DNA from: Trileptium ribeirensis
Lineage: Eukaryota; Nematoda; Enoplea; Enoplida; Thoracostomopsidae
Reading direction: 5' to 3'
Length of the DNA stretch: 64,000 bases
NCBI GenBank assembly: GCA_030248225.1
Contig: JASANE010000610.1
Span: 1-64,000 of the forward strand
Part shown: positions 1 to 61,961 of the stretch, piece by piece
Layout of the letters: the number at the start of each line of letters is the position of its first letter
Numbering within the stretch: position 1 is the first letter of the stretch
Translations under genes and position numbers: made by a program
The notes under the pieces: generated by a model
Seen by the model: only the letters and a program-made list of their open reading frames with translations
Told to the model about the DNA's origin: nothing
Databases searched by the model: none

Positions 1-765
1 AATTGTGCAAATTAATATTTGACCAACATTAATATATCATGACATATTATAATAACGGCAAATAACACAACGAATTAAACACAAATATATGATATATACC
101 TGTAAATAAAAGCTTGACACATATTTATAGAGGTATATGAATGAAAAACGGGATATCTCTCGGTAATTTTTGTTATAATTTTTTCTCATAACTCCGAAAT
201 AATTACGATGTGAAAATTAGTAAGTTCAGGCAAATTTCACATTAAATTAAAAAAAAAATTATGAGTTTAAATTTTGTATTAGTCAAAATTCCGTATCTCA
301 CATTGAATGGAAATTCGGTTTTTATTTTTCCCAAAGCGGAAACCGGCACGTTCCAGCTTTAGGCTATTTTGAAAAAGAAAAGATTCAACCGATTTTCCCG
401 GATAAGGGGAAATTGTTACCGAATCTCCGTTTTAAAAATTTAAGTTCACGTAGGCTTTACGCATCATATTTCCTACAGTATATTTATACCGATTTATAGA
501 CTACGACAATATATCCGTCACAACCATATAAGAAAATAGGCAATGTTAACAATGACTATAAAAAAATATAAAACCACAAGTAATGTTCACATTCTTCATT
601 CTTCTTTTGCACACCGTGAAAAATAAATGTTTATGGCACATTGTTTTTATTATCCGTATAAAAAAGCAAATCGTCACAATCTCAATATGGCGGGAAAGTT
701 ATATTCCTAAGAATAGTTCTGAATAGTTATAAATTATTATTGCTATCTAGGAATTTTATCATTTT
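1..765 (-). repeat. Outer noncoding part of left arm
   Basis: This segment matches, in reverse complement, the sequence after the stop codon of the right-arm gene (10738-11519). It is AT-rich with no gene. The match runs from the outermost AATTGTGCAAATT to the gene end, with small indels. It is probably the 3' untranslated and terminal sequence of the element. Confidence 0.75.
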
Positions 766-3700
766 ATTGACGACAACGCCCATTCAACATTGGGTATACT
801 GGTGAGCGGTTGGACAACAAAAACGAGGACGCGAAATCGTCTTGATCGAGGACGCTGAACCTGCTCGGGGGTAGATAACTATTGCCGGTAGATATGTTCA
901 CGCGCGCAATAGGCACCGAGCTCGATAAGCAAGATCCATATCCCGCATGGGCGACGCATAGCGATTGTCCGCACCATCGAATTGTGCCGCAAAGAAGCGA
1001 TGAATTTGGCGTTCTCACCTGGCCGCCAGAATGGCCTCAGTTGAGCACGGCGATCGGGATATCCAACCACCCACCGCTCCGGGACTACTCATGCCCACGG
1101 GGTTCCTGCAAAAGGTGAACTGAAATGTCCTCCAGTTTCTCCAATGTGCACAAACGGCTTCCGAGTACCGGATTGCCGGTCGAAATCGTTCATACCAAGC
1201 TCAAACTTTTCGTCGAACTCGCCGGAACCATACACGTTCTTTGGGCGCCTCGTCCCAGTATCGCCATTTTTCGATTCATTTCGCTGATACTTGAACAGCA
1301 ATAAAAATCGAAAAACGGTGTACGATGCATGATTTTAATAATGTTCAACGTTCTTTGATAAAAGTTGAACTGACTCCACCTCGCTAACGCTTGCAAAATG
1401 ACTTGGTAGATTTGGATTTGCTCCGACTTAATTTCGTTTGAAAAAGTATTGAAACGCCGTAAGTCCCACACGTTCAACACACAGAAATCAATGGTTCTGA
1501 CCGGTTGTTGTAATTCCGCTAGTAATTGATAGAAATGTATCCGGAGCCAGGAAAAATTTCCTTCTCCGTCCGTACGACAACAGGCATTAGGCGCAGGTTG
1601 CCACTGCATTAGCACGTGGAGTAGCGGGTCGGTGTCGTAATTCCTCCATGCCAGGTTGGGTCCCGCATAATCGATAACCACGTGTCCGCAGCTGCAACTT
1701 GGCCCTGCATTTTAGCCCGTACCCCTCTTCATCCCGCCACGATGCGGGCAAAGTGCCGGATGTCGAAGGGACGACGCAGGACACGCTCGCAGTTGTGTTA
1801 CGGGAGACGTAACCTTTCCAAGTTCGAACCTGCAGCCGGTGGGAAAGGTTCTTGCGTAGCGGAATGGTTGCGTACTTCGAGAAACTTGTGAACCTTCGCG
1901 TATAATCGTTCGTTCTCGTTTCGTTCGGCAGTTGGCTTGGGCCTGCGTTCCTTCTACACGTGCAAGAGTTCGCTTAGCGGCTCGTTCCACCGGATCAGTT
2001 GTTTTGCCGACTATCATCATATTTCGGGACTTGCTGGCTGTTTGCCTGAAGCTAAGGAGAATCGGCAGACGTCCATCCGAAGTGGAAGTCTCGATTCATC
2101 TTGAGATTCCGGAAGAGAACTACATCGCCGTCTTGACTTCTCTAGGTCGTCTTTGCTTTCGGCTTCCAGCTATCAGCGGAAGTTCACTGTCACCACTTCA
2201 CCCGGCGGTGACAGGTCGCCTTTTCAGAGTGGGAAATCTGCGTCGTTTGAGTTGAATACCCTCTTCCAGTGTCTATGCGAGCGCGATATTGTATATGGTT
2301 TCTGATCACGCCTTTTGGCGTTGCGCGTCGTTTTTGTTGAGATTGAGTATTTCGTTCTGTGAATCGCGTAAAGCTTGTTGCAACTCCGCGTTACGAGCTC
2401 TTTACAGCATTGACTTGCTGTAGTTGAACAATTCGGCTTGTAACGTATGATCTGTTCCTCATCACTGCGACACACAGTTGGTACATTCAATGGCATTATC
2501 AGGCATAGTTCTCCATGTAGTAGGTCTTGTGCAATTCCCCGGATATCGGAATCGAAAATTTGAAAACCTTGTTGTCGCGTAATCTCGGCAAACTGTACGA
2601 CTGATCGGTATATCAATGTTGTTTCCCAATTCCGGGAGTTCCTGCATAATTTCCGGATGACCATCAAAAAATCGTTTAAGACGAGGCGTTCCGCCGAATA
2701 AATAATTCCAACGCAGTTGAACACCCGGTATGATGAGACCCCTGTTCGCTCATAGCACCCTGTGGTAGCGTGATCTGGGCATAACAGCTTGTGACAATGT
2801 AAACACTGTACGGAGATGGCACAGCCACGCAGATATCACGCAAAATTGTGCTTCGCTTTAATCCATACCATCGTTCCACAAACAATGTCCAATCGCTTTT
2901 TTGGGCGGGTATCGCATCCGTTCAGTGATATACCCACCACAAAAAAAGTTCCACCACAATGTGCACAAGTGAATATAGACATTCGTTGGGGAGTTACGTT
3001 TGACACTCACGTTGGCTCCGGGAGGAGTTGGCTGCCGTCTGATAACCAACAGAGGTTCGTATTGAGCAAGGTCGCCAATAAAGTCTTGCAATCCACTCCG
3101 TTGGAAATTCATATAAATGTTCGATGACTGGCTAACAATGATATCCTCCATCCGAATTTGGCCAGAAACCATAGGCGCGATGAGGTACTGGAATGGTACT
3201 GACCCGATCCGTTGTAGACAATGCTCCGCTCCACGTGAAGCACTGGAATTGCTGCCCGTTGAGACGATGGAAGCTGCCATCCGCAATCGCAAAACTGACG
3301 AATAAGTAGTTCGTGCACAAAGTGGTGTTATCCAATCCGAAGCTACAGTTAGGAGCGTCATTGTCTAATGTATTCCAAAGTATGCCGCGGTAGTGAATCA
3401 TAAACGCCACGGTCGTACCCAATGGGTGCCCCTACTATCGAAGGCCCCAATGTAGCAGCATCAGCCCCCAGTAACGCACGGTTGTAGCACCGATATGGTA
3501 AGGGACCCAAATTGGATTCAATTGTTCGGGTTGAGTGCTGGTTGTTATCACCGATTCCAAACCGAGACCATAGCCAATGCGGAGCTGCCGTCGCCGGTTC
3601 CAAATACGTTTGGGTCTGCAGCCAGCGTTTCTGTTTCAAACCATTCGACTCAATGTAAGCTGGTGAATACCATCGCGCCGGGACAGACGTTTTCGGTGTT

Positions 3701-5480
3701 GTATCCTTTGCTGAAAATAGGCCATATGGCCCAGCTGTTGCGGTGGTGGCACCATTTGAGATCGGGTTGACTTTGAGTAACCTCAGGCTCTGTACTGTGC
3801 ATGGTACCCGGGCGTCTTGTAATTGCTCAGTTCCACCATGGGCTTTCCATCCACAACTGCGGCTGAGCAGTACAGTCGCTTGGCCGTTCAGCGATCGAGG
3901 TGCAACCGACAACCGTGTGATAGCTGGAAGCTCCAATGGAGTCGGCTGGGGTGGCAGCAGATGTACTTTCCCGGGCCGAAACTGCTGCCCTATCACTTCA
4001 TTCACAATCTCCACGTCAGGACTAGATTCCTTTCCGAGTTTTCCTGCTGTGCTCGCTGCTGCACTCTTTCTCGTTGCTCTTCCACATGGTAGGCATAATC
4101 AGATAGTATTATTGGTGTTCCGCACCATTGCGTCGTCGTTGATCCTCAGGAACTCCCTGTCGTAGCGATGCGCTGATGACTTTGCTTTTTCCCTCGTTAG
4201 GCGAATACCGTGCAAATTAATGTCAGGTCGCGGTAACTCCCAAGCGCGTTGATATTTGGCAGCGACTGTGCTCCAACGTACCCGTTCCGAAGTATCCAAT
4301 GCCGGATACATATGCTTCATGTCCAGTTCATCTGGATCGCGGACATAAATCATCGGATAAGGGTTGATGGAAATGAAAAATCCTTGCATGTTCGCTGACA
4401 CAGCTCGAAAAACTTCGGCATAAACTCTGCTTCCACTTTTGGATATTGTTTCGCCTTTTGAAAACTGAATTCGATTTGCGGAATTTTCGATAATCCCATC
4501 GGCAAAAATGTCCACAGCAAATCTTTCATCCATTCCTGTACATCTTCCATCGTTTTTATCCCTCCATCCATGGTTGAACGCTCTTCAGCTGCCATGATTG
4601 CTAAGGTCAGGATTATAGGCATCCATTGCGGCGTATATTACGATTTCACGGTACGATTCCCCCTTTCGTGGAGCTGTCTTGTTAGATTCCTTCTTGTATC
4701 CCTTAGGCGGCGGTGGAATAGTTGTAGACAGTCCGCCAAACGCTCGCATTACTATCTCACCCCATGGTGTCATTGCAGGTCGTACTTGGTATAACGTTTG
4801 TCGAAACTGTTCATCCAGTCGGTTGCTTTTTGGCGCATTTTGCTCGGTGTTCGTACTCCATCTTCAAAGCCTGAAGATAGTCAGTTATGCGCTTTAAGTG
4901 GTGGTTTTCCACGCAACACCTCAAGACGTGATAAATAAATGCCGATCGCAATGGCCAGCCCACGTAATAATATACGATGTCTCATCCTCCAGAAACTGAC
5001 GCAAATTGTCCGATATCGTGAGATAGAAGGCAAGCAAATCAATAAAGACAACTAAGCCTTCCATTGTAGCTAACTGGATCTTCGCAGCAAAACCTTGCTT
5101 CACTCCCAGCCGAGTCATATTCCGGACATTAAACCAGGACTTGGATAAAAATGGTGCCACACGTCCATAACGCGTGTGTCGTGGATAACGTGTCTGCTAC
5201 GTTAACTCCGATACGAGGTCATCTTGGCTTGCAACCCCGTGCTTTCATCCTTCAACCATTGCGGTACTCGAAACGCTTCACTGTCTAGACCAAAAACATT
5301 CCAGCTGGACTCCCTCAGCAGTGCCAATGCCATTTCCAACTGAGGTTGGGTTCGCACACATGACCATCCTCAAACCAAGTCGACGATAGAAAATCGAGCT
5401 ATGCGATATCTCGATTTGACTTTTGGTGCGTTTCTCTTGATTGTCGTATCCACCAACTCCCGGCGTCTAAGAACAATTAG
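766..5480 (-). pseudogene. Decayed left-arm copy of the exonuclease/zinc-finger gene
   Basis: Read on the minus strand, this segment aligns along its whole length with the right-arm gene. The exonuclease region lies at about 4585-5300, the Ser/Thr/Pro-rich middle at about 3360-4090, the zinc-finger region at about 2740-3010, the coiled coil at about 2250-2480 and the C-terminal helical part at about 770-1680. Single-base and short indels break the frame many times, so only fragments of up to 218 codons remain open. Substitutions and indels are both common, for example around 880-980. The ends of the gene and about 0.77 kb beyond it are also shared. It cannot make the full protein. Old divergence is the simplest reading, but poor base calling in one arm of a palindrome would look similar. 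Confidence 0.85.
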
Positions 5481-5510
5481 ATATATTTTATCATTACACA
5501 AATTATTGGT

Positions 5511-5904
5511 CCGTGTACAGCATACATGACACAAAACAAAACAAAATAAAATATTACTCCAAACATTCTAGTATATATCAGTTTATGCAGAACATCACAA
5601 ATTTTAATGCAGAAGGCTTTGAAACAAGTTATAATAGTTTCCAGGTTTAGAGGATTTGACAAATTTTGTGTAAAGACTCTTCAATATAACATTAAAATTT
5701 TTGAATTATGGGGCCAGTATTTCTCTCATAATAGTTTGCCTCAAATTGCTGATTTGATTAATTTAAATTTTAGTCGAAAGGGATATTAGTTATTGGGTCA
5801 TGATATCAGATATTAGAAGATGTGATATAGAAAAAACCAAAAAAAATAAACAAACAAAAAAAAAAACAACAAACAAACCAACAACAGCCACAATATAGCA
5901 ACTT
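5511..5904. other. Central spacer of the palindrome
   Basis: This sequence between the two arms has no counterpart in the opposite arm. It holds a short open frame (5607-5789, +) without recognisable similarity and an A-rich tract at about 5828-5880. Both genes read away from it, so it is the natural place for a divergent promoter and for any first exon. That is inference from position only. Confidence 0.5.
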
Positions 5905-5934
5905 TGAGCTTCACAATAATTTGTGTAATGATAA

Positions 5935-8900
5935 ATATATAATTGTTCTAGACCGCCGGAGTTGGTGGATACGACAATTAAAGAGCGCACTAAAAGTCAA
6001 CTCGAGATCATCGCGTACGCTCGATTGTTTTATCGTCGACTTGGTTTGGCACGAATGGTTATTTGTGTACGAACCCAACCTCAGTTGGAAATGGCATTGG
6101 CACTGCTGAGGGAGTCCAGCTGGAATGTTTTTGGTCTAGACAGTGAAGCGTTTCAAATACCGCAATGGTTGAAGGATGAAAACGCACGGGATTTGCTAAG
6201 CCAAGATGACCTCGGTATCGGAGTAACGTTAGCAACACGTTATCCACGGCACACGCGTTGTGGACGTGTGGCACCGTTTTTATCCAAGTCCTGGTTTAAT
6301 GTCCGAAATATGACTCGGCTAGGAGTAAAACAAGGGTTTGCTGCAACGATCCAGTTAGCGACAATGGAAGGCGTAGTTGTCTTCATTGACTTGCTTGCCT
6401 TCTATCTCACCATATCGGACATTTTGCGTCAGTTTCTGGAAGATGAAACATTATACATTATTACGTGGGCTGGCCATTGCGATCGGCATTATTTATCACG
6501 TCTCGAGGTGTTGCGTGGAAAACCACCACTTAAAGCGGATCACTGGCTCGATCTTCAGGCTTTGAAGATGGAGTACGAACACGAGCAATATGCGCCAAAA
6601 AGCAACCGACTGGATGAACAGTTTCGACAAACGTTATACCAAGTACGACCTGCAATGACACCATGGGGTGAGATAGCAATGCGAGCGTTTGTCGAAACTA
6701 TCTACGACTATTTTCCACCACCACCTAAGGAATACAAGAAGAAGGTAAAGGAATATCGACAGACTGCTCCACGAAAGCGGGTATCGTACCGTGAATTCGT
6801 AATATACGCCGCAATGGATGCCTTAGTACCTGATTTAGCGATCATGGCAGCTGAGGAGCGTTCAACCATGGATGGAGGAATAAAAACGATCGAAGATGTA
6901 CAGGAATGGATGAAAGATTTGCTGTGGACATTTTTGCCGATGGATTATCTGAAAATTCCGCAAATCGAATTTAGTTTTCAAAAGGCGAAACAATATCCAA
7001 AAGTGGAAGCAGAGTTGATGCCGAAGTTCTTCGAGCTGTGCCAGCGAACATGCAAGGATTTTCATTTCCATCAACCTTATCCGATGATTTACGTCCGCGA
7101 TCCAGATGAACTGGACATCAAGCATATGTATCCGGCATTGGATACTTCGGAACGGATACGTTGGAGCACAGTCGCTGCCAAATATCAACGCGCTTGGGAG
7201 TTACCGCGACCTGACATTAATTTGCACGGTATTCGCCTAACGAGGGAAAAAAGCAAAGTCATCAGCGCATTGCTACGACAGGGAGTTACTGAGGATCAAC
7301 GACGACGCAATGGTGTCGTACCAATAATCTTATCTGATTATGCCTATCATGTGGAAGAGCAACGAGAAAGAGTGCAGCAGCGAGCACAGCAGAAAACCTT
7401 TTCGGAGGAATCTAGTCCTGACGTGGAGATTGTGAATGAGGTGATAGGGCAGGAAGTTTCGGCCCGGGAAAGTACATCTGCTGCCACCCAGCCGACTCCA
7501 TTGGAGCTTCCAGCTACTCACACGTTGTCGGTTGCACCTTCGATGAATATACAGCCAAGCGATGTGACTGCTCAGCCGCAGTTGGCGGATCCAATGGAAA
7601 CTACCATCGTTGGAACTGAGCAATTACAAGACGCCCTTGCGGCAGTATGTATTACTGCACAGCGTACAGAGCCTGAGGTTACTCAAAGTCAACCCATACC
7701 TCAAATGGTGCCACCACCGCAACAGCTGGGCCATATCATCTCAGCAAAGGATACAACACCGACGTCTGTCAGCGCGATGGATTCACCAGCTTACATTGAT
7801 CGATGGTTTGAAACAGAAACGCTGGCTGCAGACTACCAAACGTATTTGGAACCGGCGACTAGCTCCGCATCCGGCTACACTGTCTCGGTTAAGGAATCGG
7901 TGATAACAACCAGCACTCAACCCGAACAATTGAATCCAATCTGGGAACCTTTAACGATATCGGTGCTACAACCGTCGTTACCTTCAGCTGATGCTGCTAC
8001 ATTGGTACCTTCGATAGTAGCACCATTGGGTACTACCGTGGCGTTTACGGTTCCACCACCCGTGCATACTTGGACACATTCGACAGCAACGACGTGCCTC
8101 ACTGTAGCTTCGGATTGGATAACACCACTTTGTGCACCAACTACTTATTCGTCAGTTTTGCGATTGCCGATGGCACCTTCCATCGTCTCAACGGCACAAA
8201 TTTTTTCGAGTGCTGCACTTGGAGCGGAAGCATTGTCTACAACGGCATCGGGCTCAAGTACCATTCCATATGTAATGGCGCCTATGGTTTCTGGCCAAAT
8301 TCGGATGGAGGATATCATTGTTAGCCAGTCATCGAACATTTATATGAATTTCCAACGGAGTGGATTGCAAGACTTTATTGGCGACCTTGCTCAATACGAA
8401 CCTCTGTTCGTTATTAGACGGCAACCAACTTGGCCGCCGGAAACCAACGTGAGATGTCAAACGATAACTTGCCAACGAATGTCTATATTCACTTGTGCAC
8501 ATTGTCGGTTGAACTTTTGTCGTGGGCATATCACAGAACATGGATGCCATACCCAGCCAACAGCGATTGGACATTGTGCTTTTGGACGATGGGTATGGAG
8601 TAAAGCGAAGCACATTTTGCGTGATATCTGCGTGGCTGTGCCATACGTACAGTGTTTACATTGTCACAAGCTGTTATGCCCAGATCACGCTACCACAGAT
8701 TGCTATGGCGAACAAGATTATCATACCGGGTGTTCAACTGCGTTGGAATTATCTATTCCGGTACGACGCATGTTAAACGATGATGGTCATCCGGAAATTC
8801 ATGCAGGAACTCCGGAATTGGACAACATTGATATACCGATCAGTCGTACATTTCGATTACGGCGACAACAAGGTTTTGCAAAATTTCGATTCCAAGCGGA

Positions 8901-10737
8901 TATGCCGGATTGCACAAGACCTACTACATGGACTATGCCTGATAATGCCATTCGAATAGTACCAACAGTGTGTCGCAGTGATGAGGAACAGATCATACGT
9001 ATACAAGCCGAATTGGTTCAACTACAGCAAGTCAATGCTGTAAATGAGCGTCGTAACGCGGAGTTGGAACAAGCTTTACGCGATTCACAAACGGAAAATA
9101 CTCAATCTCAACAAGAAACGACGCGTTTGCAACGTCAAAACGAGGTGATGCAAGAAAGCATATATCAATATCGCGCTCGCATCACAACACTGGAAGAGCG
9201 AATTCAAGATCAAACGACGCAGATTTCCACTCTGCAAACGCGACCTGTCACCGCGGATATGATGGTGCAGTGCGGTGAAACTTCGGCTACTATCGAAGCC
9301 GAAAAGCAAAGACGACCTAGAGAAGTCAAGCGGCGACGTCAGTCTTCTTCGGAATCTCAAGATGAATCGACTTCTACTTCGGATGAACGTGCTGCCGATG
9401 CTCCTTTAGCTTCAGGCAAACAGCCAGCACATCCGAATATGATGATAGTCGGCAAAACAACTGATCCGGTGGAACGAGCTAAGCGAATTCTTGCACGTGT
9501 GGAATCAACGCAGCAACCAACTGCGAAACGAGAACGACGAACGACTATACGCGAAGGTTCACAAGTTTCTCGAAGTACGCAACCATTCACTACGCAAGAA
9601 CCTTTCCCACAGCTGCAGGTTCAACTTGGAAAGGTTACGTCTCCCCGAACGGCAACGCAACTGGGGGCACGAGAGCGTGTATATAGTTTCTACGGTCCTT
9701 CGACATCGGCACCTTGCGCGTCACCGGAGGAACAGATAAGGGAATTTCCACTTGAAGAGGATTCAGGTACAGATGTAGTTCAAGTTGCAGCTGCGGATGC
9801 CACGTGGTTATCGGATTATGCGGAACAACCTGGCATGGAGGAATTACGACACCAACCACTGCTACCACATCTAATGCAGTGGCGACCAATGTATACACCT
9901 AATGCCTTCGTACGGACGGAGAAGGAGTACCTGAATCAGCTCCGGATACATTTCTATCAATTAGTAGCGGAATTACAACAACCGGTCAGGACCATTGACT
10001 ACATCTGTGTGATTGAACGTGTGGGACTTACGGCGTTTCAATACTTTCAAACGAAATTAACGAGACCGGGAGCAAATCAAATCTACCAAGTCATTTTGCA
10101 AGCGTTAGCGAGTCAAATTCGGTTCAACTTTTATCAAAGAACGTTGAACATTACTAAAATCATGCATCGTACACCGTTTCCGATTCTATTGCTGTTCAAT
10201 CTCAGCGAAATGAATCGACAAATGGCGATATTAGAACAACACCCAAAGAACGTGTATGGTTCTCGCATTCGACGAAAGGTTCGAGCTTGGTATGAACGAT
10301 TTGGACCACAACTCGGGGATGCTTTGGAAACCGTTTGTAGCACATTGGAGAAACTGGACATTCAGATTCGCCTTTTGCAGGAACCCGTGATGCATAATCA
10401 TCCGGAGCGGAATCAATGGTTGAATACTGCCAATCGTCGACGTGCTCGACTAGAGCCATTCTGGCAGCAGCATCAACGCCAAATTCATCGCTTCTTTGCG
10501 GCACAAGTCGATGGTGCGGACAATCGTATGCGTCGCCTATATGCGGGATATCGATCTTGCTTATCAAGCTTCGGTGCCCCACCCTATTTGGCGCCTGAAC
10601 ATTATCTACGGCCAATTAGTTATCTACCCGAGCAGGTTCAGCGTATCAATCAAGACGATTTCAGCATATTCGCATCTGTTTGTCAACCGCTACCAGATAT
10701 GCCCAATGCTGAATGGGGCGTTTACAATCATCAATAA
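5935..10737 (+). CDS. Large protein: DEDDy 3'-5' exonuclease domain, AN1-like zinc fingers, coiled coil
   Basis: The frame is open from 5935 to a TAA at 10735-10737. Residues here are counted from the TTG at 5962; the first ATG is codon 32 (6055). Residues about 45-295 look like an RNase D/WRN-type exonuclease: Exo I is FGLDSEA (D60, E62), followed by an IQLAT strand; Exo II is D174 in GHCDRHYLSRL; Exo III is YAAMD (Y282, D286). All four acidic residues and the Tyr are present, so an active 3'-5' exonuclease is plausible. Residues about 470-800 are low-complexity Ser/Thr/Pro/Gln. Residues 832-863 fit an AN1-type finger (CAHCRLNFCRGH core), and a second C-x2-C-x4-C-x2-H-x4-C unit lies at 898-914. 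Residues about 1008-1093 are a coiled coil, followed by a basic patch (KRRR) and a helical C-terminus I do not recognise. No transposase, polymerase or integrase motif is seen. The role in the element is unknown. Confidence 0.85.
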   Translation: MYNCSRPPELVDTTIKERTKSQLEIIAYARLFYRRLGLARMVICVRTQPQLEMALALLRESSWNVFGLDSEAFQIPQWLKDENARDLLSQDDLGIGVTLATRYPRHTRCGRVAPFLSKSWFNVRNMTRLGVKQGFAATIQLATMEGVVVFIDLLAFYLTISDILRQFLEDETLYIITWAGHCDRHYLSRLEVLRGKPPLKADHWLDLQALKMEYEHEQYAPKSNRLDEQFRQTLYQVRPAMTPWGEIAMRAFVETIYDYFPPPPKEYKKKVKEYRQTAPRKRVSYREFVIYAAMDALVPDLAIMAAEERSTMDGGIKTIEDVQEWMKDLLWTFLPMDYLKIPQIEFSFQKAKQYPKVEAELMPKFFELCQRTCKDFHFHQPYPMIYVRDPDELDIKHMYPALDTSERIRWSTVAAKYQRAWELPRPDINLHGIRLTREKSKVISALLRQGVTEDQRRRNGVVPIILSDYAYHVEEQRERVQQRAQQKTFSEESSPDVEIVNEVIGQEVSARESTSAATQPTPLELPATHTLSVAPSMNIQPSDVTAQPQLADPMETTIVGTEQLQDALAAVCITAQRTEPEVTQSQPIPQMVPPPQQLGHIISAKDTTPTSVSAMDSPAYIDRWFETETLAADYQTYLEPATSSASGYTVSVKESVITTSTQPEQLNPIWEPLTISVLQPSLPSADAATLVPSIVAPLGTTVAFTVPPPVHTWTHSTATTCLTVASDWITPLCAPTTYSSVLRLPMAPSIVSTAQIFSSAALGAEALSTTASGSSTIPYVMAPMVSGQIRMEDIIVSQSSNIYMNFQRSGLQDFIGDLAQYEPLFVIRRQPTWPPETNVRCQTITCQRMSIFTCAHCRLNFCRGHITEHGCHTQPTAIGHCAFGRWVWSKAKHILRDICVAVPYVQCLHCHKLLCPDHATTDCYGEQDYHTGCSTALELSIPVRRMLNDDGHPEIHAGTPELDNIDIPISRTFRLRRQQGFAKFRFQADMPDCTRPTTWTMPDNAIRIVPTVCRSDEEQIIRIQAELVQLQQVNAVNERRNAELEQALRDSQTENTQSQQETTRLQRQNEVMQESIYQYRARITTLEERIQDQTTQISTLQTRPVTADMMVQCGETSATIEAEKQRRPREVKRRRQSSSESQDESTSTSDERAADAPLASGKQPAHPNMMIVGKTTDPVERAKRILARVESTQQPTAKRERRTTIREGSQVSRSTQPFTTQEPFPQLQVQLGKVTSPRTATQLGARERVYSFYGPSTSAPCASPEEQIREFPLEEDSGTDVVQVAAADATWLSDYAEQPGMEELRHQPLLPHLMQWRPMYTPNAFVRTEKEYLNQLRIHFYQLVAELQQPVRTIDYICVIERVGLTAFQYFQTKLTRPGANQIYQVILQALASQIRFNFYQRTLNITKIMHRTPFPILLLFNLSEMNRQMAILEQHPKNVYGSRIRRKVRAWYERFGPQLGDALETVCSTLEKLDIQIRLLQEPVMHNHPERNQWLNTANRRRARLEPFWQQHQRQIHRFFAAQVDGADNRMRRLYAGYRSCLSSFGAPPYLAPEHYLRPISYLPEQVQRINQDDFSIFASVCQPLPDMPNAEWGVYNHQ

Positions 10738-11519
10738 ATGATAAAATTCTAATAGCAATAATAATTTATAACTATTAGTGATTATCTTCCGGATCTGACT
10801 TTCGCCATATTGACAATTATTGACAATTTGCTTTATACGGATAATGAACAATGTGCCATTAACATTTTATTTTTTCACGGTGTGCCAAAAGAAGAATGAA
10901 GAATGTGAACATTACTTGTGATGGATCAAGCTTATATTTTTTTATAGTCATTGTTAACATTGCCTATGTTTCCTTTATATGGTTGTGACGGATATATATA
11001 ATCTGGTAATTATATGATGGTATGAATATGCTTGTTAGGAAATCATATATATAACTCATGGTATAAGACCTACATAAAACTAAATTTTTAAAACGGGATT
11101 CGTAACAAATTTCATTTTACTTATCAGGGAAATCATTGAATCTTTTCTTTATCTCAAAATAGCCTAAAGCTAAACATCCGGTTCCGCTTTGGGGGAAATA
11201 AAAACCGAATTTCCATTCAATATAATACGGAATTTTAACTTAATACAGACTTAGACTAATTAATTTTTTTTTTTAATTTTAATGTTGAAATTTGCCTGAA
11301 CTTACTAATTTTCACATCGTAATTCCTTCGGAGTTATAGAATTTATAAAAATTTACAATATACTCATGGTAAATTTCATTAAGTATCTACCTCCATAATA
11401 TTGTGTCGAGCTTGGTTACAGGGATATGTCATATCTTGTGTTTAATTCGTTGTGTTATTTGCGTTCTATATTATAATATGTCATGATATAATGTTGGTTA
11501 AATATTAATTTGCACAATT
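10738..11519 (+). repeat. Outer noncoding part of right arm
   Basis: About 780 bases lie between the stop codon and the end of the inverted repeat, matched base for base with small gaps by 1-765 in reverse complement. The segment is AT-rich with no open frame of note. The last shared bases read AATTTGCACAATT at about 11507-11519, and the sequence beyond (TTCGGACTTAAC) is outside the repeat as far as can be seen. Confidence 0.75.
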
Positions 11520-12540
11520 TTCGGACTTAACAGAGCAACTCTCATCCAGTGATAAAGCGTATCTCCGACCGCTGGTAGACCGGTCCATCCCCTTTGGTGG
11601 CTCCTGTCCCCTTATTCTTGATTTTCTTTATCTTTTTGGGTAACACTCGGACTCGCTCTATACCTTTCCCCTTTCCCTTTGGCCACCATTGGAGATGTCG
11701 GTTACGTTATGGTAAGAAACGTGCCGCGGAGAAGGCCGATAAACTCACAGCACATTCAAGTTGACGCATCATACGCAAGGGTGTATAGTGAAAGCCTTTT
11801 TTGCATTAGGTGTTCAAAAACCGACATATTGATCGATAAATAAACATTAGCTTCCTCAGTTTCTTTAAAGTTTGAGAAAGGCAATAATGCCATCGCAATA
11901 CATCAAGTTTATTGTAAAAGTAGTTTTTAATGCATTTTAAATCCACTATACTATCATTCCTTCCTTCATCTAGTTTGCAATATATATATATAAATTTCGG
12001 TTTCGGATCCGGTTTAAATGGACGGTTCCGGTTATTCGCTGTTACCTAGCTATAGTATTGTTTTCGATTTCTGTTTTATTATGGGTTTGTGTGTTGGCAG
12101 AAAGAGAGTATTGAGGCCTTCTTGTCCGATTATAGTGCGGTAGCTGTCCAACTGGAAAGGTGCTTACACTCGGCCCTTAGCCCAGTGGTCGAGCAATTCT
12201 AAATCAGGAAACGCCTATACTCGGGTTTCCTTGCTAGGTTTCGTTACGTAATCGTTTTTATTACTGAGCTTAAAGAATACGCGGAATAGTGGCTCGATTT
12301 TTGCAGGAGACAGTGAAACAAGGAGCCAGTTTATCGGAGAGCTGCGAGCAACGACACAATTAAGTATCCTTATCCAGCTATTATTTATTTAATAATACTA
12401 CTTTGTCAAGAAAAACTGCGAACAGTGGCAATAAGGCTTACAATAGAAAATACTAGGGTTAGTAATAGCTTACAAATTTCGGCCCCTATGTCGAGTGAGA
12501 AACATTCCAGGACGAGAGTGAAGGTGGGTTCAGAATTAAT
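11520..12540. other. No gene seen; contains one dispersed repeat
   Basis: No credible coding frame. Bases about 11800-12045 resemble 30020-30270 (listed separately). The rest is unique within this window. Confidence 0.5.
11800..12045 (+). repeat. Dispersed repeat, copy 1 (pair with 30020-30270)
   Basis: Shares with 30020-30270 an ordered series of blocks: TTAGCTTCCTCA, GGCAATAATG, CATCGCAATACAT, TTCCTTCCTTCA, and a CCGGTT-rich end. Divergence is moderate. The family is not recognised. Confidence 0.55.
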
Positions 12541-13547: not shown

Positions 13548-15561
13548 ATGCCACTACGGAGAACGCCACCTAGCGCAACAACCCCGAAAGAATCAACGAT
13601 GGAAGAAAAGAACGTCGAAATCGGAAAACCGACAGCGACAAATCAGAGCACAATGGAAGTACCAAAAGAAATAACTCAAGAACAACACCAAAGTACAATC
13701 GAGCCAGAACGCCAAGAGCAACAACAAAATGTACACCGCAACGTTTCAAGAAGAAACGAGTATTGACGAACTATTCACAACAATGGAAGAATGGGAAAAA
13801 GAAACCGAAAAGTGATGCAATTACTCCAACAACAAAAAGAAAGATAATTGCAGTTCATAAAGAAGCATGCAACTTTGACTAAAGAACTGCAACAATTATG
13901 CCAGAGCTTCGACCAAAACGAATTGAAGATTCCACCGGCACAATCAAGAAAACAATCACAAAATACCGATGAGGATGAAGGAATCGAAATGTGGCAAGAC
14001 AGTGTAAGTCAACGAAGACCCTTCAACCGAGGCCAAGTATGGACGGTACCGTACAACGAAAAAGAATCGGAGAAAGAACAACCGATAACAATTATGGACA
14101 ACGATCAAGAAACTATCGGGGCAATAAGATGCACAGTCGATGTCTACGAGCAACAACCGAACAAAAACGATAAGGATAGACTAACAATCGACGAATATCG
14201 AACGCAACTCGGCGCAATCGGTGCAAGTCAAAAGCAACCCAACATAAGCCGAGACAAACGCAATACAAACGACGACTAATTCGGTGCAATCATGGAACGA
14301 ACCGGTGCAAAACCAATGCGACCTAACGCAAACCAAGATCAATTCGACCTTAATTACGACTCATTCGGTGCAATAAATGACCAACCTAGAGCAACTCAAA
14401 CACGATTCATTGGAAACCGAGATCAAAATAACACGAACCACGTTCCATTCGGTGCAAATAACAATCAATTCAGTGCAAAGAAAGACCAATTCCGTGCAAC
14501 CCTAACACGACTCAACGCGAACCGAGATCAAGTCGAGAGAAAGAACGATCAAACCGGCGCGAATAAAGAACACACCGGTGCAAGTCAAAAACGACGCCAA
14601 CGGTGATCAAACCGACATAGATTGCGGTCAATTCGGTGCAATTCAAATGCAAACCAACGCAAACTCGGAACAATTCGTGCAAACCAATATCGAATTGGCA
14701 CGAATCAAATGCGGTACAACACTAACCGAGATCAAGTCGACATAGATTATGATCAATTCGGTGCAATCCCAATGCAACCCAACGTAAACCCGGAACAATT
14801 CGGTGCAAACTGCAATGAAATCGGTGCAAACCAATATCGAGTGAACACGAACCAAATGCGACACAACACAAGCCAAGGCCAAGCTGACCCGAACCACGAA
14901 AAATTTGGCACAAATCAAGAACAAACCGGTGAATCTCAAACGGTGAACACATGGAACCAAATACAAGTTCCGAGTGCGACAACAAATTTCGGTGCAACCC
15001 AAAGCATAAATGGATACAACCGAATCCAAACACCGTATATAACGACGAACTGCGGTGCGTTTCAAACCATGAGCACATGGAATCAAGTACAACCAATAGC
15101 AACCGGTGTAGTACAAAGCAACCAATAGCAACCGGTGTAGTACAAAGCGACGTGTACGGATATTACGGTGCAACACCCATGGTACCGCAGTAAAGTCAAA
15201 TTCCACTCGCGGGAAGCAACACAATGATTCATCCTGGAGCACCTTTGGCAACAGCAACACCTTATGTATGCCAGTACCATCAACCACAACGAGCCAAACC
15301 ATGAATCAAGTACAAAAAGTACAACAGGACGACTTGATGACGAAAAGGATCGAAGCATTGATCAAGGTGGCAACCAAGGAAACGCCACAAGTTCCGAGCA
15401 CGACACAACAAACAATCGGTCAAGCAATCATGGTCAAAATTGAGAATGAAGTTCGAAATTTACAACCGTACAAGGGCGATTCAAGCTTCGATAAATTTCG
15501 AAAACAACTTGAGAAAGCGTTGGCCGAAAGAGAAAGAATTGGAGTCAGACTGTGCAAGTAA
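13548..15561 (+). pseudogene. Degenerate Gag-like Asn/Gln-rich repeat protein of a retroelement
   Basis: Open segments 13548-13766, 13848-14279, 14292-14606 and 14622-15128 lie in one frame, separated by stops or short shifts. The TAA at 14277-14279 is followed directly in frame by FGAI, a repeat motif, so it interrupts a formerly continuous protein. From 14292 the product is built on degenerate repeats with FGA(N/I), (N/D)xDQ and NxNQ motifs; the DNA echo is TTCGGTGCAA, seen more than ten times. A base missing from TTCGTGCAAACC near 14672 shifts the frame. A last segment (15268-15561, another frame) ends with LQPYKGDSSFDKFRKQLEKA, which resembles the start of a Gag capsid region, and then runs into the downstream flanking repeat. 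No protease, RT or integrase is present. It is dead, or at most a non-autonomous element. Confidence 0.5.
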
Positions 15562-22676: not shown

Positions 22677-23990
22677 CAGAACGTAGTGGAGATTGTGTGT
22701 TGCAGGGGTGAAATCTTTTAAATTCCGTCTGTGGTGTGTGTATGTGACCGGCCATAAGTCGAGAACGCCTAAACCGATGTTCATGATCTTGGGCTCATTG
22801 GAACCGCCATTTAAAGTGTACGTCCCCGAGCGTTTTTTGGCTTGGGGTCTGGTGTTAAAATGTGGGGTTTTTGTCCCATTTTAGTACCCTTAACGGAAGC
22901 AAGGTTATTTTTATCTTAATTAGCGAATTTTTTTCTCTGGATGGTTTTATTTTATAGTAAAATGATAAATGTCGATGCCTCTTTTTGTTTTTCGATTAAG
23001 GCTCCGGTTCTGGATTTTGGGGTTTGGGGTACGGGGGTGTGGTGCCCAAATGGTTCCTCGACCCAAAATTTGAAAATTTGTTCCGATATCTTGGGCGGCT
23101 GATAAGTTGTGCCTGGGGGTTTTCGGGCATGGGAAACTCAATGCCGGTGCCGGTTTTGCTCTGCGACCCATGGTTCTATGGTACCTCTGTTTTTTGCCCC
23201 CATGGTTCGGGGTCAGAGGTCAAAATGAGTGTTTTTAGTACCCTTCACGGAAGCAAGGTTATTTTTATCTTAGCATTTGAATTTATTTCTCTGGTTAGTT
23301 TTATTTCATAGTAAAATGATAAATGCCGATGCCTCTTTTTTGTTTTTTCGATTAAGGCTCCGGTTTTGGAGTTATGGGGTTTGACGTCACCCGGCACCCT
23401 CATGGTTCCTCGTCCCAAAATTAGAAAATTTCTGACGTCCTGGGCGGCTAAAAAGTTTAACTTTTGGGTTTTCGGGCATGGGAAACTTATTGACGGTATT
23501 GGTTTTACTCTGCGACCCATGGTTCCATGAGTACGTGGCATGGCTCCCCTTTGGTTCGGGGTCATAGGTTAAAATGGGGTCGATTTAGTATCCTTCACGG
23601 AAGCAAGATTATTTTTATCTTATATAACTTGATTTTTTTTCTCGTTGGTTTTATTTCATAGTAAAATGATAAATGCCGATGCCTCTTTTTTGTTTTACGA
23701 TTAAGGCTCTGGTTCATTGGTTTTGAGGTATTGCACCCTCGTGATTGCTGGGCCCAAAATTCGAAAATTTGTTCTGACGTCCTGGGAGGCTGATAGCTTG
23801 CACTTGGGTGGTTTTCGGGCATGGGAAACTTATTGCCGGCGTTCGTTTTGGACTAAGTTTTGCGGTATTGTGTGATATCCACATATGGTATATCTACGAA
23901 TGCTATCGATAGCTAGTTGGCTCTGCATGTAAAAGGCATAGGTGTGCCTATGCTTCACTACGTTCTGCAATCTCGAAGAAGTTACTAGTT
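22677..23990 (+). mobile_element. CAGAACGTAGTG element, copy 1, with ~350-bp internal tandem repeats
   Basis: Begins CAGAACGTAGTGGAG at 22677; the inverted motif CACTACGTTCTG is at 23956-23967. Similarity to the other copies continues about 25 bases further, to TTACTAGT. Inside, a unit recurs at 22886, 23243 and 23592 (about 350 bases). It carries CACGGAAGCAAGGTTATT, GATAAATGCCGATGCCTC, GATTAAGGCTCCGGTT, AATTTGTTCTGACGTCCTGG and TTTTCGGGCATGGGAAACT. The short open frames on both strands are by-products of these repeats. Other copies are at 57368-59795 and, inverted, 61205-61961. Confidence 0.7.
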
Positions 23991-24239
23991 ATACTACCAT
24001 GACAGCACTAAAGTTGTTTTAATCAGATATAAAAACCGTGCAACGCTTTATTTCTTTCTCCAAGGACCAAAAATACGAAAAGTGTTGAAGGAAATTTATT
24101 ATTTAAGTAGCTATGTCTACGTTGTAAGGCCCCAAAACTTGTTTTATTTGATGCATACTACGCTGATGCATTAGGTTTTATCGTATTCAGCAGCCCGAAA
24201 GCTTATACACATGTTCTCATGAACTACATGCATCTATAT

Positions 24240-24851: not shown

Positions 24852-25959
24852 TTGATGATTATTTCCAATAAGAATTATGCTGTCGCATGTCCGAACAGTC
24901 TCAGACCACGGACTGCTATCATGATATCTAAGAACATAGATTACTTATTTATTAATGAGTTGTCTGATATGGATTGTACTGCGATACGCACGCGACTGGC
25001 AGGAACCACCACATGGTGTGAACATGTGAACAGTGGTCATAGCGTCTCTTTATATCCCCTACGATGGTGTGAACCTGCCTCCAACTCAGCAGATTTGTCA
25101 TCTCGTGCGTTATTGTATGACTCATAAGATATCTCTTCTGATAGGGTGTGATTCCAACTCTCATCACACACTTTGGGGCAGCACTAATGATAACGCCAGG
25201 GGTAAAGCTCTCCTGGACTTTATTATTGGCAATGATCTCATGATCTTGAATGTTGGCAACACCCCGACATTCATGAATCGAGTAAGAGAGGAGGTTATAG
25301 ACCTCACGTTGTGCTCACTGGACATTAGTGACGTTATCAGCTATTGGAGAGTATCACCTGATCCCTCCTATTCAGACCACCGCTACATCGACATTGGAGT
25401 GAGTGGGATCATGAACCACGCTGTCAATTCTGATGTAGTGAATATCAGAACTATTAATGAGCAATCATTCTGTTCTAAGTTAAAGGAAAGCCTGGGAAAT
25501 GACCCACGCAGCATAAGCAATACCTATGATCTTGAAGCTGAGGTAACGTGCCTGTGTACTGCTATAGATGAGGCATCATCAGGCTCTTGTAAGCCCAAAA
25601 GGATACATGATAGCACGAAACCACGCTGGAGGAGCGCTACCGTAGAAACTCTACGCGCTGGATCTCGACGGCTCTTTCACAGAGCTAGCAGATCTAAGAA
25701 GCCGAGTGACTGGGAACGATATAAGAACTCGCTAAAAGAATATAAGTCGGCCATTAAAAGAGCCAAGACGGCTAGCTGGAGGGCCTTCTGCTCCGACGTC
25801 AACGGATGCAAGGAAACCACACGGCTTAAGAAAATTATTGCGAATACCGGGAGTCATAAAATAGGAACCCTTGTCGCACCTGGATCGAGCTACACGGGTA
25901 ACGAAAAAGAAACACTTGAGTTACTTCTATCGGCTCCATTGACACAAATGACCAGGTGA
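24852..25959 (+). pseudogene. LINE endonuclease domain remnant
   Basis: Two overlapping frames (24852-25127 and 25033-25959) encode an APE-like endonuclease lacking its start. GCDSNSHHTLWGS corresponds to the usual GDFNAHH..WGS motif, with Cys in place of the expected Asp-Phe pattern. YSDHRYI supplies the SDH motif. The rest of the second frame is the linker towards RT and ends with a TGA at 25957-25959. It is non-functional because of the frame change. Confidence 0.75.
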
Positions 25960-27284
25960 TGGCTAATGGATTCTGTAGGTACTCTGGTATGGTTAGAGTA
26001 CTTTGCAACAAAATATTTTCTAATGAAAATATTAAATGGGCAATATCTACTTTTGAACCATATAAGTCACCTGGCCCGGACGGTGTCTACCCTATACATC
26101 TCCAAATGAGTTGTGACGTATTAGTTGAGAGGCTGTATCTTTTCAGCTTCCCTAGTCAGTGGATTCGTACCACATGCCTGGAGGTCAGCGAAAGTAGTGT
26201 TTATCCCAAAACCTGGGAAAGATAGGTATGATATTCCAAAATCTTTCAGACCTATCTGTCTCTCATCGTACGTCCTGAAAACCATGGAACGTCTGATTGA
26301 CAGATATCTGCAGAAGGGCGAGGGAGTTGTTGGCAGGCTTCATCCGAAGCAGCATGCCTATCTTTTTGGCAAATCCACTACCACGGCTTTGCATGAGCTA
26401 GTTGGCACTGTTGAAGATAAAATCTACAGTGGTAGAATAGTTCTAGGATGCTTCCTTCACATAGGAGGCGCTTTTGATAACACGAATCTATCATCGTTTG
26501 AGAAAGCGTTTAAGAACTTTGGGTTATCCAAGATATTAAATAACTGGCTCAGAAATTTACTTTTAAGCAGAAAAGCTACTGCCAGTATGGGCGGAACATC
26601 TGTTACAGTTAATGTGCAGAGAGGAAGCCCTCAGGGTGGCGTCTTGTCACCGTTGCTCTGGTGTATGGTGATAAATAGCCTCCTTGATGAATTGAACGTA
26701 AGAAATACTCACGCACAAGCATACTCGGATGACGTGGCAATATTATGTAATGGGCCTGATGTTTCATCAGCTAAACGTCTGATGAACTCAGCCCTAAAGA
26801 AGGTTAGCCGCTGGTGTCTTAAAAATGGGCTAAATGTGAATGCCAGTAAGTGTGGACTTATTGTGTTCCACAACAGCCGTACAGTACCAGATTTTTCTGG
26901 ACTGTCACTTGGAGGGAACAGATCCCATTAGTGACTGAAATAAAGTACGTACCTTGGGGTTATGATTGACTCCAAGCTTAGCTGGAAGTCTCATTTAGAC
27001 TCATTGTGGCGAAAGCGAAGAAAGCCGCTATGACATGCAGAAACTGTGTTGGAAGGTCATGGGGCCTAAAGCCCAGCTCCCAACTGTGGCTTTACAATGC
27101 AGTGGTTCTGCCTATACTTCAATATGGGGTTATAGTCTGGTGGCATAGAATCAAGATTGGCTTCTTTACGAACGAGGTGACGCGTCATAATTTGCTCATG
27201 GCAACTGGGACAATGAGATCTACCCCAACCCTGGGCTTACAAGCAGCGCGATGCGTGCCACCCGCTGAGACATCCCTAATATAG
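25956..27284 (+). pseudogene. LINE reverse transcriptase domain remnant
   Basis: The frames 25956-26225, 26125-26931 and 27006-27284 together cover an RT. SPGPDGVYP starts the domain, KSFRPICLSSYVLKTMERL and FGKSTTTALHELV follow, then GGAFDNT (motif A, where the first Asp of the usual DI-GAFD is not seen), GSPQGGVLSPLLW (motif B) and AYSDDVAIL (motif C, SDD rather than ADD). The thumb region holds LYNAVVLPILQYGVIVWW. At least two frameshifts and the altered motif A make it inactive. Confidence 0.8.
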
Positions 27285-27290
27285 GAGGTT

Positions 27291-27902
27291 ATGGTCTGCT
27301 ACCACAGGTTGGTCACCACAAGCCATTGGAGCATGGGATTTAACAATTGCAAGAGAAGACATTTAAATGTGGACCGCCTGGTACAGTTAGTGCCAAGCAT
27401 TCAGTTACCATGCGATCGCCTGGCTAAAGAACTGGTTGACTCACCAGAGTGGAGAGACATCATTCCGAAACGTGAAGAGTGGGATATGGCCACGATCATT
27501 GAAGAACAGAACACCATCAACTGTTACACAGATGGTTCTAGATTGGAGCTGCCTGACGGACCATATGTCGGTGCTGGCATCTTCATAGAAGGCATGCTAA
27601 GACACTCCTGGCCACTTGGTAGCGCTGGCTCAGTGTTTCACGCTGAAGTCTATGCTATCATGGATTGTTGTAACAAGCTACAACAGAATAAATTAAGGAA
27701 TAAATCTACATGTATTAATTCAGATAGCCAGGCGGCTATTCAGGCAATTTCAGGCAGGTATGTACGCTCCAGACTAGTCCTTGATTGTATTAACAGTCTT
27801 AGGTTACTATGTCAAAATAATAGCGTTACGTTGAGATGGATTCCTGGACATGAAGAATATATAGGAAATGAGATAGCAGACGAACTGGCCAAACGGGGAT
27901 AA
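27291..27902 (+). pseudogene. LINE RNase H domain remnant
   Basis: RNase HI motifs are present in order: CYTDGSRL (catalytic Asp), FHAEVYAIMDCC (Glu), INSDSQAAIQAI (Asp) and WIPGHEEYIGNEIADELAKRG, the last a typical C-terminal handle. The domain itself is open and has its key residues, but it is cut off from the RT by a stop at 27282-27284 and ends at 27900-27902. Confidence 0.8.
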
Positions 27903-28094
27903 CGGAAGAAGCACAAGCCTGAACCCGTTCTTCCTATCCCGGCCAGCAACATCCGTCTTGAAAGCAAGCAATGGGCATTCTCCTCTCTTCAGGGGCTATG
28001 GGAATCGGAAAAGGGATGTAGGCAGACAAAACTCTTTCTACCGACCCTATGTAGGAGATATAGCAAATATCTTAGAAAGCTGAACAAGATAAAA

Positions 28095-28352
28095 TTGAGG
28101 TGGGCCGTAAATCTTATTACAGGCCATAACACGCTGAATTACTATATGTACAATCTGAAGCTCGCAGATTCTCAGCAATGCAGCATATGCAATGAAAGGG
28201 ATACGGCAGAACACCTTATACTGCGGTGTCCAGGCGAGGATCAGCTACGATCCAAGATCTATGGAAAGACTAGGATAGAATTTGAAAACATCCACTCTGG
28301 GGGAATTATGAGGATAGTCAGGTTTTCGACAGAATGTCGGAGACTTGAGTGA
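28095..28352 (+). pseudogene. LINE C-terminal CCHC segment
   Basis: The open segment contains LRWAVNLITGHNTLNYY and CSICNERDTAEHLILRC, a C-x2-C-x7-H-x4-C motif found after the RNase H domain in this LINE group. The stop at 28350-28352 is probably the original end of ORF2. About 110 bases of 3' tail follow. Confidence 0.7.
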
Positions 28353-47005: not shown

Positions 47006-47480
47006 TGAGCGGCGCGAGGCGAAGCCGAGCGAAGCGTTTTTATTTTCTGTCTGTGACCAAAAAAGTCGATGTCCGTCCGTTCGTTAGTTCGTTCGTTCTG
47101 TTCGACGGATCTCAAGAACCACTGAACCTATTTTAAAAAAACTTTTTTTTCGTTTGAAAGCCTATCATGTCAGAGTGTGCACCTGATATTTGGGATTTAA
47201 AAATTTTGAGTGGTTAATTAGTAATTAGCTAATTAGTTAAGCTTATGCAGCTATAATAGAGAATTTTGCAATATTTGTGTTATTTATTGAAATAGAATCG
47301 TTTCGATCAAACCATTATAGGGTTTTTGGGTCGAAGAATTCAAATATAATATGTTTACCAATGATAAAGCCCTATGCCCTACGCAAAGTAGTTATTTGAA
47401 GAACATAAAATCTAGTACATTCGTAATGCCACAGCCCAAGCTCCGCTCACAAATGTAGTTCCACTACCGACTAGTTTACA
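47006..47480 (+). mobile_element. GAGCG...CGCTC repeat element, copy 1
   Basis: Almost the whole segment is repeated at 57541-57990: GTCCGTCCGTTCGTTAGTTC, GACGGATCTCAAGAACCAC, GAAAGCCTATCATGTCAGAG, TTAATTAGTAATTAGCTAAT and a GCCACAGCCCAAGCTCCGCT end. Ends are TGAGCGGCGCGAGG and AGCTCCGCTCA, short imperfect inverted repeats. It lies just before CRTC exon 7; its last bases reach ACCGACTAGTTT, 25 bases upstream of the acceptor. Confidence 0.75.
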
Positions 47481-61204: not shown

Positions 61205-61961
61205 CTATCACTAGTAACTCTATCGACATTGCTGAACGTAGTGAAGCCTAGGTACACCTACTCCTTTTGCGTGTGCAGCGAATTAGCGCTGGATAGCATA
61301 GGTCGATATGCAATATGTAGATATCACACAATACCACACAAATTAGAACAAAATTAACGCCGGAAATAAATTTCCCATGCCCGAAAATGCCCAAAGTGCA
61401 AGCTATAAGCCTCCCTGGACGTTACAATAAAATTAGGAATTTTCAGTCGGTCAACCATGAGGGAGCCATATCCCCGTACCCATGGAACCATGGGCCGCAG
61501 AACAAAATCAACACCTGCAATGGATTTCTCATGCCCGAAAACCTTAAAGTGAAACTTTTCAGCCGCCAAGAAATTTTCGAATTTTGGGTCGATAATCCAC
61601 GAGGGTGGCATACCTCAAACTCCAGCACCGGAGCCTTAATCGAAAAACAAAAAAGAGGCATCGGCATTTATCATTTTCCTATGAAATAAAACCAACAGAG
61701 AAAAAAATTCCAAAGTTGAGATAAAAATAATTTTGCTTTCGTGAAGTTTGCTAATTTGGGGCAAAAAACCCACATTTTGATCCCTGATCCAGACCATAAA
61801 TCAAAAACGCTCGGTAAATCGACTATTCCGGTTCGAATCAGCCCAAGATCATGAAAATCGGTTAAGTCGTTCCCGAGTTATGGCCGATCAAACACTTAGA
61901 CGGAATTTAAAAGCTTTCTCCCCTGCAACACACAATCTCCACTACGTTACATTAGGTTCTG
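61205..61961 (-). mobile_element. CAGAACGTAGTG element, copy 3 (inverted, short)
   Basis: Read on the minus strand it begins CAGAACCTAATGTAACGTAG at 61961, passes TGTGTGTTGCAGGGGAGA and one internal tandem unit, and ends with CACTACGTTCAG at about 61232, then GTTACTAGT. It is about 730-760 bases, holding one unit of the ~350-base repeat where the other copies hold three to five. Confidence 0.7.

Follow-up and report, generated by a model that had tools for sequence, protein, structure and literature searches.

What is a palindrome of more than 11 kb doing at the start of a nematode contig? The stretch of DNA analyzed here (the window, 64,000 nucleotides) comprises the first bases of contig JASANE010000610.1 of Trileptium ribeirensis (C402:1-64000; assembly GCA_030248225.1, 687 Mb in 20,229 contigs), and positions 1 to 11519 hold two long inverted arms with an outward-reading gene. 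An original prediction, made from the letters of the sequence, had proposed that this might be a new class of mobile element, a nonautonomous element with a host-like gene, or an inverted gene duplication. Our comparisons favor another answer, to which we give a probability of about 0.88: the palindrome would be a foldback artefact at the contig end, and the gene would be the third open reading frame (ORF3), encoding a predicted DEDDy 3'-5' exonuclease, of a Ty3/gypsy-type long terminal repeat (LTR) retrotransposon.

The inverted repeat itself is present in the sequence, as described in the original prediction. Self-comparison of the window gave two inverted match pairs, both far above chance: 1802-5508 with 9645-5914 (88.5% identity) and 1-1701 with 11519-9781 (81.9% identity), with a spacer of ~0.4 kb between the arms. 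The ends of the arms are another matter. Base 1 of the window coincides with base 1 of the contig, so that the left arm's "outermost base" is simply where the contig ends; nor does the arm end mark the end of an element, since homology to the right arm runs beyond 11519, to 11521-11538, in 14 of 20 other copies fetched from the genome. Each arm had also been said to hold the same gene. This is true of the right arm, where a frame at 5962-10737 stays open for 1591 codons (it is listed with a TTG start, and its first ATG is codon 32), but in the left arm the frame is broken by frame-changing insertions and deletions. We conclude that the inverted repeat exists in the sequence but is probably not biological. 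The features on which the argument turns are as follows.

1-5508, minus strand: left arm, a probable artefact, read as a noisy antisense second reading of 5914-11519; starts at base 1 of the contig.
5509-5830, minus strand: noisy, antisense version of the ORF3 upstream region; the match covers 5537-5830.
5831-5911, no strand assigned: A-rich stretch holding the turn of the palindrome; lies between the match ends and contains A-rich tandem repeat matches.
5912-11538, plus strand: genuine LTR retrotransposon stretch, with the end of the ORF3 leader, ORF3, and part of the 3' noncoding region.
5962-10737, plus strand: ORF3, 1591 codons, start codon unsettled.
11545-11749, plus strand: final 205 bases of the LTR (terminal CACA), at which the window copy has its true right end.

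We compared the two arms over 5918-11505, an interval that includes ~0.8 kb of noncoding DNA. The left arm differs from the right by 326 substitutions and 300 insertion or deletion (indel) events, of which 202 are of a single base and 266 are not multiples of three; the longest stop-free stretch in its three sense frames is 246 codons. Eleven dispersed copies of the same family, drawn from the 20 fetched after nine partial or interrupted ones were excluded, have 399 to 692 substitutions relative to the right arm and only 10 to 33 indel events per copy. Pooled, they amount to 6151 substitutions and 212 indel events, compared to 326 and 300 for the left arm (Fisher p ~3e-205). The distribution over codon positions differs as well: third positions dominate among the pooled natural copies (1074:800:3139), whereas the left arm is nearly even (72:95:104). 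Twelve other repeat pairs in the window, several of which overlap and are thus not independent, gave a pooled 634 substitutions and 110 indel events; under four scoring schemes, the number of indel events per substitution was 0.56 to 0.92 for the arms and 0.12 to 0.17 for these control pairs. Because of the indel ratio and the codon-position pattern, the left arm resembles sequencing error and not an evolved copy, be it conserved or decaying. PacBio-type error was set aside as a less likely source, since substitutions are as frequent here as indel events. A/G exchanges in the left arm are 2.5 to 3.4 times as frequent as a transversion type, the value varying with scoring; for nanopore reads, PMC8486125 puts A/G at 3 to 5 times.

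A second line of evidence comes from bases peculiar to the window copy. A site was called private when the right-arm base was absent from all 20 fetched copies, with data for 10 or more of them at that site, and 53 such sites were found. At these sites, the left arm carries the right arm's base 36 times, the commonest family base 13 times, another base twice, and a gap twice. When five other copies were put in the left arm's place, they shared the private base at 2/55, 2/55, 2/55, 12/65, and 3/56 sites, or 21/286 pooled, compared to 36/53 for the left arm (p ~4e-21). This count, and that of shared substitutions given below, used all 20 copies, with five doubling as controls. Together with the error-like differences, the sharing of private bases indicates that both arms very likely come from one molecule, the left arm being a repeat reading of it that received hardly any correction.

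The spacer, judged by its alignments, is no independent DNA but the element's own upstream region in antisense. Window positions 5537-5830 correspond, noisily and in antisense, to what lies ahead of the gene in other copies: 8 of the 10 copies tested align from 5537-5542 to 5818-5833, with 42 to 54 mismatches and 17 to 23 indel events, while four natural pairs have, over the same upstream stretch, 7 to 13 indel events to 44 to 100 mismatches. Sense-strand homology to the family begins at 5912-5918 in 13 of 20 copies. With the antisense match ending at ~5830 and the sense homology starting from 5912, the turn should lie within the A-rich stretch 5831-5911. A plausible course of events is that, during library preparation, one antisense strand extended ~0.4 kb beyond the ORF3 start before continuing on its own complement; the folded strand would have been read through, and the second reading would have become the contig end, uncorrected by any other read. 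Foldback reads as described in PMC12870357 have this form: a locus is read first along one strand and next along the opposite strand, producing a palindrome whose center lies near the turn, and the resulting assembly tangles are warned of.

What is the gene, if the palindrome around it is set aside? The suggestion that it is part of a mobile element is borne out by its dispersed copies. At least 53 DNA matches were found genome-wide, two of them being the window itself, and a protein search of the same genome gave at least 40 (29 of 678 candidates scored); some pairs of copies match along the entire 9.9 kb fetched. Palindromic arms with the same ends, which would be expected of such copies if the palindrome were the structure of the element, are not among their features: none of the 20 fetched stretches, to which the check for a head-to-head junction was confined, has an inverted self-match of 150 bp or longer, and 12 of them extend 1.6 kb or more upstream from the beginning of ORF3, into the region in which any second arm should start.

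The structure of the element could be read from one complete copy, on contig C8427 (12656-35451; 22,796 bp), from which all statements on LTRs and target duplications derive. Its LTRs of 3684 and 3674 bp begin with TG and end with CA, are 2.25% apart (Kimura two-parameter distance), and are flanked on both sides by a 5-bp target duplication, CGACT; TGG directly follows the 5' LTR. In other copies, RNase H, integrase, and then, at the end of pol, a PHD finger lie upstream of ORF3, and frames further upstream contain a CCHC knuckle, an aspartic protease motif, and reverse transcriptase (RT). ORF3 is thus preceded by gag-protease-RT-RNase H-integrase-PHD, in which protease, RT, RNase H, and integrase follow the order found in Ty3/gypsy elements. 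Pfam matches exceeded the cut-off for RT, RNase H, the integrase zinc domain, and PHD (24.8 bits; cut-off, 24.0), while those for the protease and the integrase core fell below it, as did that for the gag CCHC knuckle visible in the frames (zf-CCHC, E 0.04). Among PDB structures, RT is nearest to Ty3 in a sequence search, as distinct from a tree (best E values 7e-34 and 4e-33, the second for an entry named Ty3-G Gag-Pol). Substitutions in the RNase H-integrase region favor third positions in 8 of 8 pairs. No dUTPase was matched by Pfam between protease and RT at E 0.05 in the two frames, both from one locus (L029), that were scanned. Given the gag and pol genes upstream and the complete, LTR-flanked copy, the gene is, by its sequence context, that of a Ty3/gypsy-type LTR retrotransposon and not of a foldback or DNA element. 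The apparent want of a recognisable transposase is explained, as RT and integrase sit upstream of the gene in other copies and contig C402 keeps only the 3' part of the element, with the 5' part not on the contig. The window copy ends at 11749 and, compared to the C8427 copy, is missing ~4.0 kb of 3' noncoding region and LTR between 11538 and 11545. In another copy, on contig C8948 (L019, 1-202, gene orientation), an LTR-end fragment stands upstream, where pol would be expected, suggesting a nested insertion.

Of the alternatives, the one that survives best, although we consider it improbable, is a real and very recent inverted duplication of one retrotransposon copy, in which the left arm was badly base-called as the palindrome folded in the pore and could not be corrected by the assembly. 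A recent duplicate would likewise share the right arm's private bases, and real inverted duplicates are reported in PMC7229812 to be read by nanopore with low accuracy, with quality dropping at the junction. However, the arm runs out precisely where the contig begins, no palindrome is seen in the 20 other stretches, and a real palindrome should have many covering reads, with both of its arms corrected. Considerably less credible is a head-to-head junction of two independent family copies, either real or created by a chimeric read, whose left member was poorly corrected. The inner left arm (5918-6999) does carry family bases at 7 of 10 private sites, but farther out, starting at 7000, the two arms agree at 34 of 43 private sites, compared to the 21 of 286 found in controls. 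If a gene had been duplicated in inverted form long ago and one arm had since decayed, one arm would be open and the other broken, as seen; we give this reading hardly any weight, with 300 indel events to 326 substitutions here and 212 to 6151 pooled in diverged copies. Equally negligible is the chance of a novel kind of mobile element, palindromic or foldback in structure, that carries an exonuclease gene: such an element would fit the inverted repeat and the dispersed copies, but the 20 stretches, including the 12 that reach far enough upstream, hold no palindrome, homology passes the arm end, and LTRs, gag, and pol are all found in the complete copy. On the indel ratio, the private bases, the homology past the arm end, and the nonpalindromic copies, we rejected the foldback transposon, the decayed duplicate, and the two-copy junction.

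Several observations nevertheless speak against a foldback artefact. Foldback reads are characterized in PMC12870357 as close to perfect; often nothing intervenes between their arms, and the signal at the turn is not noisy, whereas a 0.4-kb loop separates the arms here. Homopolymers do not have more than their share of one-base deletions (39 of 105, with 46% of bases in runs). The excess of A>G changes is partly present in natural copies also (77:35 versus 1284:1012, p 0.008), and 116 of the 326 left-arm substitutions occur in another of the 20 copies, where 77 would be expected at random. The inner part of the left arm, besides its family bases, has the right arm's base at only 2 of 10 private sites, and its indels are less frequent than farther out; we suppose that reads from other copies were used to correct it, an unproved reading, and of all the observations this is the least explained. 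Finally, the argument is drawn from the assembly sequence, with the indel spectrum and the private-base test taking the place of raw reads. In practical terms, a catalogue of mobile elements should not list this palindrome as a new one. The indel/substitution ratio, the codon-position pattern, and the sharing of private bases between arms offer a sequence-only test for foldback contig ends.

We turn to ORF3. Eight full-length protein matches, the window copy included, are without stops. A second ORF3 subfamily comprises seven loci (on contigs C5112, C3554, C15442, C4029, C15190, C9316, and C8547), 61 to 65% identical, with frames of 1646 to 1662 amino acids; four of these have no stops in either of their match rows. 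Three parts can be distinguished in the window copy.

6139-6819, plus strand: predicted DEDDy exonuclease part (D60/E62, D174, Y282/D286); residues invariant in 4 of 4 copies; Pfam model PF01612.
8455-8733, plus strand: two Cys/His-rich zinc-finger stretches, AN1-like or Tc5-C-like (C832 to C924).
8968-9240, plus strand: predicted coiled coil, residues 1003-1093; coiled-coil Pfam models, below the cut-off.

The DEDDy motif, which we take to have the form D-E, D, Y-D, was assigned to D60, E62, D174, Y282, and D286 of ORF3, and these residues are invariant in four of four aligned copies, one of them from the second subfamily. Between residues 820 and 930, 22 cysteines and histidines are invariant in all four copies. 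Zinc-finger models matched below the cut-off, PF04236 in 4/4 copies (best E 0.073) and zf-AN1 in 1/4 (E 0.44), and a scan of NCBIfam gave only weak, below-cut-off matches in the coiled coil and beside it. Of the PDB sequence searches for ORF3, one returned two weak, unrelated chains and another none. The predicted combination of a DEDDy exonuclease, AN1-like fingers, and a coiled coil thus fits the residues, while every Pfam match is below the cut-off. Three results count against the exonuclease in particular. PF01612, although found in 4/4 copies, reached a best E of only 0.017, below the cut-off; no significant homologue of ORF3 was found among the 7274, 7997, and 7990 candidates returned for the whole ORF3, the exonuclease piece, and the four-copy alignment, respectively; and a structure model of residues 1-460, built without an alignment, had a pLDDT (predicted local distance difference test) of 34. 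For these reasons, the assignment rests on the motif residues.

Constraint on ORF3 was gauged by the ratio of nonsynonymous to synonymous substitution rates (dN/dS) among three first-subfamily copies. The ratio is 0.13 to 0.14 overall, 0.04 to 0.05 for residues 1-330, and 0.05 to 0.07 for residues 790-990, rising to 0.24 to 0.38 in the linkers 500-780 and 1110-1270. These values are from open copies only, which tempers them; the second subfamily (L035) was excluded, as dS was saturated or undefined in most parts. The low dN/dS of the exonuclease part implies that selection on active copies keeps ORF3 working, and we regard such maintenance in active lineages as very likely on this comparative evidence. 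We suppose that ORF3 is expressed together with the rest of the element. The zinc fingers and coiled coil would keep the protein attached to RNA or inside the particle, and 3' ends of element RNA or complementary DNA (cDNA) would be trimmed by the predicted exonuclease. It is conceivable, at somewhat less than even odds, that the DEDDy exonuclease is an indispensable third gene, given the strong purifying selection on its exonuclease and zinc-finger parts (dN/dS 0.04 to 0.07), and is active in the element's replication, either maturing the 3' ends of RNA or cDNA or destroying host guide RNAs that silence the element.

Elsewhere in the window, positions 25030-28352 hold a frameshifted non-LTR retrotransposon whose endonuclease (PF14529, 1e-19), RT (PF00078, 3e-28), and RNase H (PF00075, 9e-12) occupy separate frames. 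A tandem repeat of ~349 bp underlies a dispersed family that occurs in both orientations at 22838-23993, 58002-59791, and 61206-61962, and 47042-47476 and 57566-57989 form a direct repeat of 92% identity. Asn/Gln-rich open frames with a repeated peptide of the GANRDQ type lie at 14292-15128; Pfam gave no match in the two frames neighboring them (13848-14276 and 15115-15558). Scans of the window for viral contigs, Rfam families, and tRNAs gave nothing useful.

How does this locus compare with known systems? With respect to the palindrome, the foldback reads of PMC12870357 are described there as reads, whereas the artefact here is a contig end, has a 0.4-kb loop and one noisy arm, and is known from the assembly alone. 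With respect to the gene, Dada DNA transposons likewise carry a DEDDy-type exonuclease, but as a domain inside the DDE transposase according to the description in PMC3706591, and not as a separate ORF of an LTR retrotransposon, as here. A DnaQ-like exonuclease domain in LTR retrotransposon polyproteins is mentioned in PMC6338049.

The closest parallel is provided by the Juno and Vesta LTR retrotransposons of bdelloid rotifers, which carry a predicted DEDDy-type ORF3 (Rodriguez, Kenefick, and Arkhipova 2017, PMC5408684). In a search of the literature for LTR retrotransposons with an ORF3 or a DEDDy exonuclease, no LTR element with such an ORF3 turned up besides the bdelloid ones. The comparison that follows is with published descriptions, as far as these go, and not with bdelloid sequences. 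Both systems are LTR retrotransposons with a third ORF downstream of pol and a predicted DEDDy-type exonuclease, and a zinc-coordinating motif is noted in Vesta2 and Vesta5 (PMC5408684). In contrast to Juno and Vesta, the present family is 22.8 kb long with 3.7-kb LTRs and has a PHD finger after integrase, whereas a chromodomain is described as lacking in the bdelloid lineages; a dUTPase is placed between protease and RT in Juno, Vesta, and TelKA, whereas the present family gave no dUTPase match; and a coiled coil is predicted in ORF3 here, while the bdelloid DEDDy ORFs are stated to have none (PMC5408684). Those ORFs were also described as showing no significant departure from neutrality (PMC5408684), while ORF3 here is strongly constrained. 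A DEDDy ORF3 in LTR elements is therefore already known; what sets the present family apart, going by the published descriptions, is the size of the element, the PHD finger, the lack of a dUTPase match, the architecture of ORF3, and its evident constraint. The bdelloid exonucleases having been described without evidence of selection, the strong constraint on ORF3 makes the purpose of such an accessory enzyme testable.

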